64,000 nt of DNA from Lelliottia jeotgali (GTDB lineage: Bacteria; Pseudomonadota; Gammaproteobacteria; Enterobacterales; Enterobacteriaceae). This document shows positions 14,776 to 17,633 of the stretch, piece by piece. Both the position numbers and the translations under genes were made by a program. The DNA is taken from the NCBI GenBank assembly GCA_002271215.1, contig CP018628.1, positions 2,976,001 to 3,040,000 of the forward strand, read 5' to 3'. Position 1 is the first letter of the stretch, and each line of letters starts with the position of its first letter. Under the pieces are notes generated by a model. That model did not search any database. It was not told where the DNA came from and saw only the letters and a list, made by a program, of their open reading frames with translations.

Positions 14776-16140
14776 ATGAACTCCATCATCAGTACTTTAT
14801 TTCTGAAAAATATCCGCTCATATCTTAATTTCCCGGTCGCATCTCTGCCCGGTTATTTACAGTCGGAAGTTAACGATTATTTAAGTGATTATCCACTGAC
14901 TCAACATGTGGATGTTTATCTTTATGACATCAATGGCACGATGCGCGGAAAACGTCTTTCTGTTGAGAGTCTTTTTACGCTTTCAAAAGGATGTTATTTT
15001 CCGCTTTCCGTCTATTCGATGGATCAGAAAGGCAAGGTTTCGTGTCATTCCCCAGCACAACCCCTTCATGACGAACCCGATCACCTGTGCCTGCCAGTGC
15101 CGGGCACGCTGCGCCCTTCGCCTCAGGACCCCTTGCATACCGCGCAGATCCTGCTGACGATGACCGACAACCATCAGGCTCCGTGTCAGCTGGAACCGCG
15201 CGTTATTCTCCAGAACGTGCTTTCGCGCTTTCATCAGCATGGGCTTTATCCGGTGGTCGCCCCCGAAATTGAGTTTTATCTCTCCAGCCCGCAGCCAGAG
15301 GATATCCGCGGCCAGGGATGTTTTAATATGGAGAATTCCACAGCCCGTAGCGCCGTTTTTAATGACCTTGAGCAGCTCGCGCAGGTTCAGCAAATCCCGC
15401 TGACCGGTATTGTGGCAGAGGCCGAATCTGGCCAGTTTGAACTGAATCTTAAGCACAGTTCCCGCATCTTAGAAGCCTGTGATAACGTGCTGGCCTTGCG
15501 CCGCCTGACGCGTTATGTCGCTGAAAAACAGGGTCTTAAAGCCAACTTTATGGCGAAACCCTACAGCCTACAGTCTGGCAATGGTCTGCATTTTCACTTC
15601 AGTTTGCAGGATGTACACGGAGAAAACGTGTTTGCCTCCTCCGCCGATGAGCTCAACAGCATGATGCGCCTGTGTATTGCCGGTCAGCTGGCGCTGATGC
15701 CTGCTTCGGTAGCCATCCTCGCGCCCGGTGTGAACGCGTTTCGCCGTCTGCGCAAGAACCTCGATGAGCCCCTGTTTAACTCATGGGGATATAACAACCG
15801 CTCCGCCGCCCTGCGTATTCCGTGCTCTGACGAGGGAAACCGACGCATCGAATATCGTCTTGCAGGCGCCGATGCCAACCCCTATCTGGTGGTCGCGACC
15901 ATTCTCACCGGCATGTTGTACGGACTGGAGTGCTTCGACGAGCACGACCTTGCCGACCCGCAGAACGCCGCCCCGGCCCTGCCACTGTTTCAGCAGCAGG
16001 CCATCGAACAGTTTGCCCAGTGTCAGTATCTGACCGACAGCCTGGGACATGCGTTTTCGCAGCAGTGGATCGCCTGCAAACTGTCGGAATTAGCCTGGTT
16101 CGAAAGTATCGTGACAGAGGAAGAATCCACCCTGAGTTAA
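14776..16140 (+). CDS. Glutamine-synthetase-fold ligase (PuuA/GS-like), accessory
   Basis: A 454-residue protein of the glutamine synthetase family, closer to gamma-glutamyl-polyamine-synthetase-like members than to GlnA. The N-terminal beta-grasp domain is short. The catalytic domain keeps the metal and ATP residues: APEIEFYL (E164, E166), AEAESGQFELN (E222), SGNGLHFHFS (H272/H274), GYNNRSAALRIP (R342, R347) and RRIEYRLAGADANPY (E359, R361). It is therefore likely an active ATP-dependent ligase joining glutamate, or another carboxylate, to an amine; the amine is not deducible. It is followed after 49 bp by a GT20 protein on the same strand, likely one operon. The AT-rich upstream sequence suggests acquisition. 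Not present in K-12 between sanA and mglC. Confidence 0.85.
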   Translation: MNSIISTLFLKNIRSYLNFPVASLPGYLQSEVNDYLSDYPLTQHVDVYLYDINGTMRGKRLSVESLFTLSKGCYFPLSVYSMDQKGKVSCHSPAQPLHDEPDHLCLPVPGTLRPSPQDPLHTAQILLTMTDNHQAPCQLEPRVILQNVLSRFHQHGLYPVVAPEIEFYLSSPQPEDIRGQGCFNMENSTARSAVFNDLEQLAQVQQIPLTGIVAEAESGQFELNLKHSSRILEACDNVLALRRLTRYVAEKQGLKANFMAKPYSLQSGNGLHFHFSLQDVHGENVFASSADELNSMMRLCIAGQLALMPASVAILAPGVNAFRRLRKNLDEPLFNSWGYNNRSAALRIPCSDEGNRRIEYRLAGADANPYLVVATILTGMLYGLECFDEHDLADPQNAAPALPLFQQQAIEQFAQCQYLTDSLGHAFSQQWIACKLSELAWFESIVTEEESTLS

Positions 16141-16189
16141 TTCCGTTCTGGAATATCATTTCCCCGAGGCCAGATTCGCTGGATATATT

Positions 16190-17602
16190 ATGTCTACGTT
16201 GATTATTGTTTCGAACCGTTGCATTACGCGAAAGACGACATTTACCGATCCGCTACTGGACGTTCTGGAAAAAATAGCCATTAATTATTCCGCTAAATGG
16301 TACGGATGGGACGGTGAAATAGAGACCAGCCGAAAAGGACCACAACGAAGCCGCCATGATATTAATACTTTTACCGTATATAGCAGACCGTTTTCCGCCA
16401 ACGAATACGAGAATGGATATCACGGATACATCCATAAAGTCTTGTGGCCGGTATTTCACAATCGCCCCGACCTTGCGGAATATCAAAAAGAGTATTTCAC
16501 GACCTATAAAATGAATGCGCAAAACGTCGCAGAGGATATCGCGCACGATCTCCGCGATGAAGAGATTATCTGGGTGCATGATTACCATTTGCTCCCGGTG
16601 GGCAAAATGCTGCGTGATGGAGGGCATCACAATCTGAGCGGTTTTTTCCTGCATCAACCCTTCCCGCCGGGTGACGTCCTGCGCAGCATCCCGGAGCATA
16701 ACTGGCTGGTGCACGCGTTACTGGAGTATGACGTGATTGGCTTTCAGTCGAGCGCCGACGTCAGTAATTTTCTGACCTACGTGCTGCGATACCATCGGGT
16801 CACACGTCTGGCACCTGACCTTATTCAGCTCAATGGCAAAACCATCCGCATCGGCATTTTCCCCTGCGGGATTGTGGCTGATGCTCAGAACGTGGCACCG
16901 CCCATACATCGTCAGGTTGATGACTATCCACGTCAGATAATTATCAGCAACGATGTGATCAGCGATATTAGCGGTATTCATTACCGGCTGGATGCGATGC
17001 GAACCTTTTTGAACCACCATCCGCAGTACATCCGCAATGTCAGTTTGCTACAGATATCCGATCCGTCGCGTGAATATCCTCGTTCGACCAGCAATCTCTG
17101 TACGCGTCTGGAAAGGTTTTGCGGTGAGTTAAACGGCCAGTACGGTGATTTTTCGTGGTATCCGGTGAATTACATCCACAACACCCTGTGCAGCCAGAAG
17201 TTGATTCAGGAGCTGTACGCCAAAGCCCAGGTGGCGCTGTTTACACCACTATCGGAAGGCACCAGCCTGAGCGCCAAGGCCTTTATCCTGGCGCAGGATG
17301 TCGACGATCCTGGCGTGCTGATCCTCTCGATGTTTAGCGGTGCGGCGGAACAACTGAGCGAAGCGATTATTGTTAATCCCTACGATGCCAACGAAACCAG
17401 CGATGCTCTGCACTCTGCGCTCTCGATGCCGCTGCATGAGCGCAAACGGCGTCACGGATTGATGCTGAAGAAGGTTCTGCGCTACGACAGCCTGTGGTGG
17501 GGGCGAACCTTTATTGAGGCGCTGGAGGATAAAACCCGGCCTGCGGCACCGGTGTTCATAACTTCCCATTACGGCGTTTTCACGCCGCAAAAACTCTACT
17601 AA
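16190..17602 (+). CDS. GT20 (trehalose-6-phosphate-synthase-like) protein with degenerate donor site
   Basis: A 470-residue OtsA paralogue covering the whole GT20 domain. Conserved relative to OtsA are SNR (R10), VLWPVFH, WVHDYHLLP (D131), FFLHQPFP (H155) and an arginine in DPSRE (R294). However, the VERLDYSKG block, whose Arg262 and Lys267 bind the UDP-glucose diphosphate in OtsA, is replaced by NDVISDISG at about 254-262. The GGL loop after SNR is missing, D361 becomes E356 and E369 becomes A364. The acceptor side thus looks kept while donor binding is damaged, so it may be inactive, regulatory, or use another donor. It sits 49 bp behind the GS-like gene and ends at a strong terminator. Confidence 0.8.
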   Translation: MSTLIIVSNRCITRKTTFTDPLLDVLEKIAINYSAKWYGWDGEIETSRKGPQRSRHDINTFTVYSRPFSANEYENGYHGYIHKVLWPVFHNRPDLAEYQKEYFTTYKMNAQNVAEDIAHDLRDEEIIWVHDYHLLPVGKMLRDGGHHNLSGFFLHQPFPPGDVLRSIPEHNWLVHALLEYDVIGFQSSADVSNFLTYVLRYHRVTRLAPDLIQLNGKTIRIGIFPCGIVADAQNVAPPIHRQVDDYPRQIIISNDVISDISGIHYRLDAMRTFLNHHPQYIRNVSLLQISDPSREYPRSTSNLCTRLERFCGELNGQYGDFSWYPVNYIHNTLCSQKLIQELYAKAQVALFTPLSEGTSLSAKAFILAQDVDDPGVLILSMFSGAAEQLSEAIIVNPYDANETSDALHSALSMPLHERKRRHGLMLKKVLRYDSLWWGRTFIEALEDKTRPAAPVFITSHYGVFTPQKLY

Positions 17603-17608
17603 ATAAAA

Positions 17609-17633
17609 AGGCCCGCTGAGTCAGCGGGCCTCA
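17609..17633. terminator. Terminator between the GT20 gene and mglC
   Basis: AGGCCCGCTGA-G-TCAGCGGGCCT is a near-perfect palindrome with an A-run before it and CAT after it, between convergent genes; it can act in both directions. Confidence 0.85.

Follow-up and report, generated by a model that had tools for sequence, protein, structure and literature searches.

A predicted gamma-glutamyl-amine ligase and a donor-degenerate GT20 protein encoded side by side in Lelliottia jeotgali and other Enterobacteriaceae

A stretch of 64,000 nucleotides from Lelliottia jeotgali (contig CP018628.1, positions 2,976,001 to 3,040,000; hereafter the window) contains two adjacent genes that encode a predicted ligase of the glutamine-synthetase fold and a protein of the GT20 family, which has the fold of the trehalose-6-phosphate synthase OtsA (Table 1). 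The donor site of the GT20 protein is degenerate across the whole clade to which it belongs, and the conclusion that this protein is no longer able to use a nucleotide sugar is strongly supported by the alignments. The reading that we prefer, tentatively and a little short of an even chance, is that the GT20 protein is a sugar-phosphate-binding regulator or scaffold of the gamma-glutamyl-amine ligase in potassium or osmotic stress; such a protein would probably sense or steer rather than make a product.

As stated in the preliminary description of this DNA, the pair is located between sanA and mgl (SanA, 506 bits with a cut-off of 363; MglC, 635 bits with a cut-off of 386), and the coordinates of the open reading frames agree with two genes on one strand, 49 bp apart. 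The spacing is 9–63 bp in all 16 full-length loci measured, which, together with the short gap in the window, suggests that the ligase and GT20 genes form one transcription unit. The first protein matches PF00120 at 1.1e-74 (252.1 bits, gathering threshold 24 bits), and the second one matches PF00982 at 1.8e-94 (317.6 bits, gathering threshold 32.5 bits) and is accordingly a member of the GT20 fold family. As regards a possible defence system, PADLOC identifies no match.

Table 1. Features of the ligase–GT20 locus (positions in the window)
Feature	Position	Strand	Basis
PuuA-like gamma-glutamyl-amine ligase, glutamine-synthetase fold, 454 aa (predicted)	14776..16140	+	PF00120, 252.1 bits
Gap between the ligase and GT20 genes, 49 bp	16141..16189	+	spacing compared across loci
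Predicted donor-dead GT20 (OtsA-fold) protein, 470 aa	16190..17602	+	PF00982, sequence
Codons for GT20 residues 72-93 (Glu72, Gly79, Tyr80, His82, Asn91, Pro93)	16403..16468	+	clade comparison
Codons for NDVISDISG, replacing OtsA VERLDYSKG (Arg262 to Val, Lys267 to Ser)	16949..16975	+	alignment
GC-rich hairpin located between the GT20 gene and mglC, probably a shared terminator	17610..17630	.	sequence inspection by eye

The genome encodes two PF00120 proteins, GlnA and the window ligase. The window ligase is 45.7–47.5% identical to six PuuA-type proteins and scores 165.4 bits with the gamma-glutamylputrescine synthetase equivalog NF045547, for which the cut-off is 650 bits. All NCBIfam models with a match to the ligase or the GT20 protein stay under their cut-offs. 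In the ligase tree, the clade of the window ligase is split from the six PuuA-type rows by a branch with 100/100 support; the tree is used only for this split because its root, placed on a GlnA outgroup with a branch of 9.5, is unreliable. The Serratia-type ligases sit nearest PuuA in this tree and may have a different substrate from the other members. The earlier statement that every catalytic residue of glutamine synthetase is kept holds for Glu129, Glu131, Glu220, His269, Arg321, Arg339, Glu357 and Arg359, which we take to be the catalytic core of the superfamily, and fails for Asp50/Ser53, Glu327 (Asp in the window ligase), Asn264 (Ser), Lys352 (Gly) and Tyr397 (Pro); the columns of GlnA Tyr179 and Glu212 fall in an alignment gap and lie outside this comparison. 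Asp50/Ser53 are the ammonium-site residues of GlnA, and Tyr397 the residue that is adenylylated, so that the window ligase belongs to the PF00120 superfamily by score and catalytic core and lacks these hallmarks of GlnA. PuuA-type proteins depart from GlnA at the same positions: PuuA has the same fold and catalytic core, and its ammonium-site residues are likewise replaced. The window ligase differs from PuuA by its separate branch and by its flap, where the position of Glu327 is occupied by Asp in the window ligase, by Asn or Thr in many others, and by Tyr in PuuA. Judging by these residues, the substrate is likely to be an organic amine, to which the enzyme probably joins glutamate.

The GT20 protein scores 367.6 bits with the OtsA equivalog (TIGR02400), for which the cut-off is 564.85 bits. 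The residues of OtsA that hold UDP-glucose include Gly22, Asp130, His154, Arg262, Asp361 and Glu369 (PMC1769515, available excerpt) and Lys267 (PMC3441724, available excerpt); the window GT20 keeps only Asp130 and His154 of this set. An ungapped alignment with three OtsA chains confirms the replacement of VERLDYSKG by NDVISDISG that had been noted previously, and the alignment likewise bears out the absence of the GGL loop. The reported changes of Asp361 to Glu and of Glu369 to Ala are present in the window GT20, but the second does not extend throughout the family, Glu369 being retained in 10 of 20 homologues. Arg262 and Lys267 are lost in all 20, Asp130 is retained in 20 and His154 in 19, and the sequence that stands in for the lost motif is conserved as well. 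A misalignment of the donor site was considered and is ruled out by the ungapped match to the three OtsA chains, the same columns in the 20 homologues and the same fold. In a tree of the N-terminal domain, a clade of 30 rows is split from 13 canonical rows (100/100); the clade consists of eight half-length proteins, which themselves form one clade (100/99), 17 full-length ones, and P0021, P0022, P0023, P0045 and P0075, some of which are source-named Erwinia or Pantoea. P0021, a full-length protein that retains Arg262 and has Thr in place of Lys267, branches beside the half-length clade and is a possible intermediate form. Donor-degenerate GT20 proteins of the Erwinia/Pantoea type, in which Arg262 is replaced by His and Lys267 by Ala or Ser, are represented by L090:8001-9428, L095:6001-7425, P0022, P0045 and P0075, and large plasmids of Pantoea and Duffyella encode such proteins too; the annotated neighbours include no ligase in either of the two plasmid contexts that were read.

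Glucose-6-phosphate is held in OtsA by Arg9, Trp40, Tyr76, Trp85 and Arg300 (PMC1769515, available excerpt). The window GT20 retains Arg9, Tyr76, Trp85 and Arg300 as well as both tryptophans of the WYGW segment, in which the printed Trp40 is not exactly placeable. Arg9 is found in 16 and Arg300 in 9 of 20 homologues, which weakens the case for glucose-6-phosphate as the ligand. Residues 72-93 of the window GT20 surround the retained Tyr77 and Trp86 (Tyr76 and Trp85 of OtsA); within this segment, the 17 full-length and 5 half-length members compared all share Glu72, Gly79, Tyr80, His82, Asn91 and Pro93, six positions at which the OtsA of the window genome differs. His82 and Pro93 are clean markers of the clade: none of the 13 canonical rows has either, and the 30 clade rows carry both, apart from P0023, in which position 82 is Cys. 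Gly79 or Tyr80 also occurs in several canonical rows and Glu72 in two, and Asn91 is replaced by Gln in some clade rows.

In five loci of the Serratia type (L083, L084, L054, L055 and L056, from genera g26 and g17), the gene after that of the ligase encodes a GT20 protein of 229–236 residues that consists of the N-terminal domain only, terminating at the point that corresponds to the end of this domain in OtsA. This arrangement is seen in all five g26 and g17 genomes that carry the ligase, and tblastn detects no remnant of the C domain at these loci. A predicted model of the half-length form (pLDDT 84.4, pTM 0.82, i.e., fairly confident) matches the OtsA N domain. A database search identifies 12 matches to the half-length form, 10 of them with PF00982, from sources that include Serratia proteamaculans, S. 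plymuthica, S. ficaria and S. odorifera. The half-length proteins comprise L083:9911-10639, those of L084, L054, L055 and L056, and P0241-P0250, and several of them are annotated as trehalose-6-phosphate synthase. Both the half and the full GT20 forms are under purifying selection: with a simple Nei-Gojobori script, dN/dS within genera is 0.10 (g26b/g26c), 0.12 (g26a/g26b) and 0.07 (g17a/g17b) for the half-length form, and 0.30 between genera (g26a/g17a), and for five within-genus pairs of the full-length form it ranges from 0.01 to 0.11 in the N domain and from 0.07 to 0.20 in the C domain; two full-length comparisons between genera, in which synonymous sites are saturated, are left out. Since dN/dS stays far below 1 in the N and C domains alike, a decaying pseudogene is ruled out, and the C domain, where present, retains some function because it is under purifying selection too. 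The gap between the ligase and the half GT20 is at most 72 bp in L083, L055 and L056. In L084 and L054, a gap of ~450 bp contains an open reading frame for a GNAT-like protein (136 aa in L084), which could modify the product of the ligase; no convincing similarity links the GNAT genes of the Serratia-type pair to those located next to a Pantoea GT20.

The GT20 variant (at least 48% identity; the next match is at 40%) is present in 13 of 295 genomes of the family, from 8 genera. The preliminary description had proposed to check whether the two genes co-occur and stay adjacent, and the ligase is indeed encoded directly upstream, on the same strand, in all 13. The ligase itself, at a cut-off of 438 bits that is a small step above the next matches (412 bits, labelled here as PuuA-type), is found in 22 family genomes, with a full GT20 in 13, a half GT20 in five, and no GT20 remnant in four (G239, G067, G266 and G189), so that the ligase is not always in need of a GT20 partner. 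In G239, which belongs to the same genus as the window, the ligase occupies the sanA–mgl site and is followed by a similar hairpin, with the GT20 gene absent; in the ligase tree, G239 together with P0125, P0132 (the latter named Enterobacter cloacae) and P0134 is sister to the window ligase, and GT20 was likely lost in this branch. A full-length GT20 variant is encoded in Kosakonia sacchari (L036), where the 17.4 kb of sequence covered contain no ligase. At E <= 1e-90, the variant is found in none of 368 other genomes of the class, and none of 5,426 E. coli genomes has a site that matches as much as 80% of the pair; short matches occur in 4,327 of the latter, and the 20 matches listed correspond to a 149-bp stretch of puuA. 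As part of the mechanism proposed below, the pair would be a small, laterally mobile module carried by some relatives of E. coli.

The flanks of the pair vary by genus and include BtuC in L067, OsmF and a ProV-like ATPase in L069, YncE and CstA sides in L083, and sanA/mgl in the window; in L074, UspB is encoded ~3 kb from the pair. Clusters common to several genera are those of the YncE type (g100, g26 and g17) and of CstA (g26 and g17), and the OsmF equivalog that adjoins the pair in L069 has its gene cluster in the two other g72 loci as well. The 7.5-kb contig of G236 that carries the pair also contains otsA and a broken otsB (L068:759-2774), with other OtsA and OtsB proteins encoded elsewhere in this genome. 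On plasmids, kdp genes are encoded beside the GT20 variant in all seven records, which represent three arrangements rather than seven independent events, four of the records being one island of the Klebsiella pneumoniae type. In the Raoultella and Pluralibacter plasmids, the kdp genes have the same direction as the pair and are accompanied by TrkH; in the four K. pneumoniae plasmids, they are divergent, and one of these plasmids has broken copies of the ligase, GT20 and kdp genes; in the Salmonella plasmid, kdpA, C and B are followed by insertion sequences. The ligase is annotated as whole on five of the seven plasmids, detected by tblastn only on the sixth, and broken on the seventh. KdpA is encoded on 449 of 72,556 plasmid records, some of which are chromosome-sized. 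The kdp link is observed on plasmids alone: in the 22 genomes, the contig that carries the pair or ligase has no KdpA at a distance of up to 90 kb, though in G236, G192 and G267 this contig is shorter than 9 kb. The island TrkH-KdpFABCDE-ligase-GT20 of L086 and L087 looks like a mobile cassette for potassium or osmotic stress. Between the kdp genes and the pair, the K. pneumoniae plasmids encode a 109-aa hypothetical protein (L088:7915-8244). Kdp, OsmU and OtsAB all take part in the osmotic and drying response of Salmonella (PMC13033924, available excerpt).

In the mechanism that we consider best compatible with these observations, the first gene, given its PuuA-like active site, would encode a ligase that uses ATP to couple an amine to the gamma-carboxyl group of glutamate; the GT20 protein, with its predicted loss of nucleotide-sugar use and a partly kept acceptor-side pocket, that of glucose-6-phosphate in OtsA, would bind a sugar phosphate and regulate or scaffold the ligase. 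The weakest steps are the setting in potassium or osmotic stress, which the Kdp/Trk potassium uptake and OsmF osmoprotectant uptake neighbours suggest, and the product, which might be, e.g., a less charged gamma-glutamyl amide formed from glutamate and an amine, such as a polyamine. The sensor idea, already raised in the preliminary description, is compatible with the data as a putative role. The other idea raised there, a non-canonical glycosyltransferase, here in the form of an enzyme with a new donor that acts with the ligase to make a gamma-glutamyl or amino-sugar osmolyte, appears decidedly improbable. The conserved replacement motif, the near-invariant Asp130 and His154, and purifying selection on the C domain of the full form count in favour of such an enzyme, but even VldE, a GT20 protein that forms C-N bonds, retains the nucleotide-holding Arg, Lys and Glu, of which Arg and Lys contact the ribose and phosphates (PMC3441724, available excerpt), whereas the Arg and Lys of this pseudo-glycosyltransferase (VldE/ValL) are Val and Ser in the window GT20 and are lost in all 20 homologues. 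In addition, five genomes keep only the N domain beside the ligase, yet this domain is under purifying selection and has the clade-specific residues, and 9 of the 18 genomes with a pair or half-pair have neither OtsA nor OtsB; these two observations make a glycosyltransferase role unlikely. That the protein is an ordinary second trehalose-6-phosphate synthase, as the public records have it, is hardly credible: it shares fold and family with OtsA but falls far under the equivalog cut-off, lacks Arg262, Lys267, Gly22 and the GGL loop, has Glu for Asp361 and clade-specific residues on the acceptor side and, in the half form, is devoid of the C domain.

Inactive GT20 proteins with regulatory functions are known from eukaryotes, namely the TPS3/TSL1 subunits of yeast (PMC1769515, available excerpt) and the plant class II TPS, which are described as regulatory (PMC12048469, available excerpt); like the window GT20, they lack the synthase residues. 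The window genome encodes a second, canonical GT20 elsewhere, its own OtsA, of which the variant might by analogy be a regulatory subunit, but this is very improbable, and a general role as an OtsA regulator is rejected, given that nine genomes, four with the full form (G192, G071, G267 and G084) and the five with the half-length form, have neither a second GT20 nor a trehalose-phosphatase match. The eukaryotic proteins are partners in trehalose synthesis, whereas here OtsA is not needed and the gene neighbour is the ligase. No bacterial counterpart of these regulators was seen in the open-access literature at the level of titles and abstract starts, where the related papers found all concern OtsA or validamycin enzymes, and at the same level no paper on a ligase–GT20 pairing was found. 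A clearly unlikely alternative is that the ligase stands in for PuuA in the breakdown of putrescine or other amines, with GT20 incidental. Among named proteins, those of the PuuA type are closest to it, and the window genome lacks PuuA; however, a PuuD-strength match (E <= 1e-50) is absent from 7 of the 22 ligase genomes, including that of the window, 15 of the 22 possess a second, PuuA-like match besides the clade ligase, and the flap is unlike that of PuuA. No puu genes are seen adjoining the ligase in the window; in G016, G084 and G071, the second ligase adjoins a PuuD-strength match. Finally, the two could be stress genes that travel together without contact between their products, GT20 being a stand-alone structural or osmosensing protein. 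A precedent is Arthrobacter OtsA, which is reported to sense osmotic stress in connection with trehalose-6-phosphate (PMC5685639, available excerpt), although it is an active synthase that assembles into networks, unlike the presumably donor-dead window GT20. The four genomes with the ligase alone, the Kosakonia locus and the Erwinia/Pantoea-type proteins in their two plasmid contexts are compatible with such independence; the persistence of gene order and strand, with a spacing that is mostly short, at various sites and even where half of GT20 has been lost, speaks against it, and we regard this possibility as unlikely, if the least so of the alternatives.

Extended to its full scope, the preferred reading is that of a bacterial control module of two genes. 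A glycosyltransferase fold would have become a sensor of sugar phosphates that acts on a gamma-glutamyl-amine ligase; it would have lost first the site for the nucleotide sugar and later, in Serratia and its relatives, the entire donor domain, so that half of a GT-B enzyme persists as a regulator. The module would link sugar-phosphate status to glutamate/amine chemistry under potassium or osmotic stress and spread on plasmids with Kdp; in this complete form, the reading is possible but rather doubtful. Public records, including those of Klebsiella and Salmonella plasmids, label proteins of the clade as trehalose-6-phosphate synthase, and this annotation is probably wrong for the whole clade because residues required for the synthase reaction are missing. 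If the sensor idea is true, these proteins would be bacterial counterparts of the inactive GT20 regulators known from yeast and plants, with the half-length form as a minimal domain, and would point to a metabolite that links sugar status, glutamate and potassium in osmotic stress.
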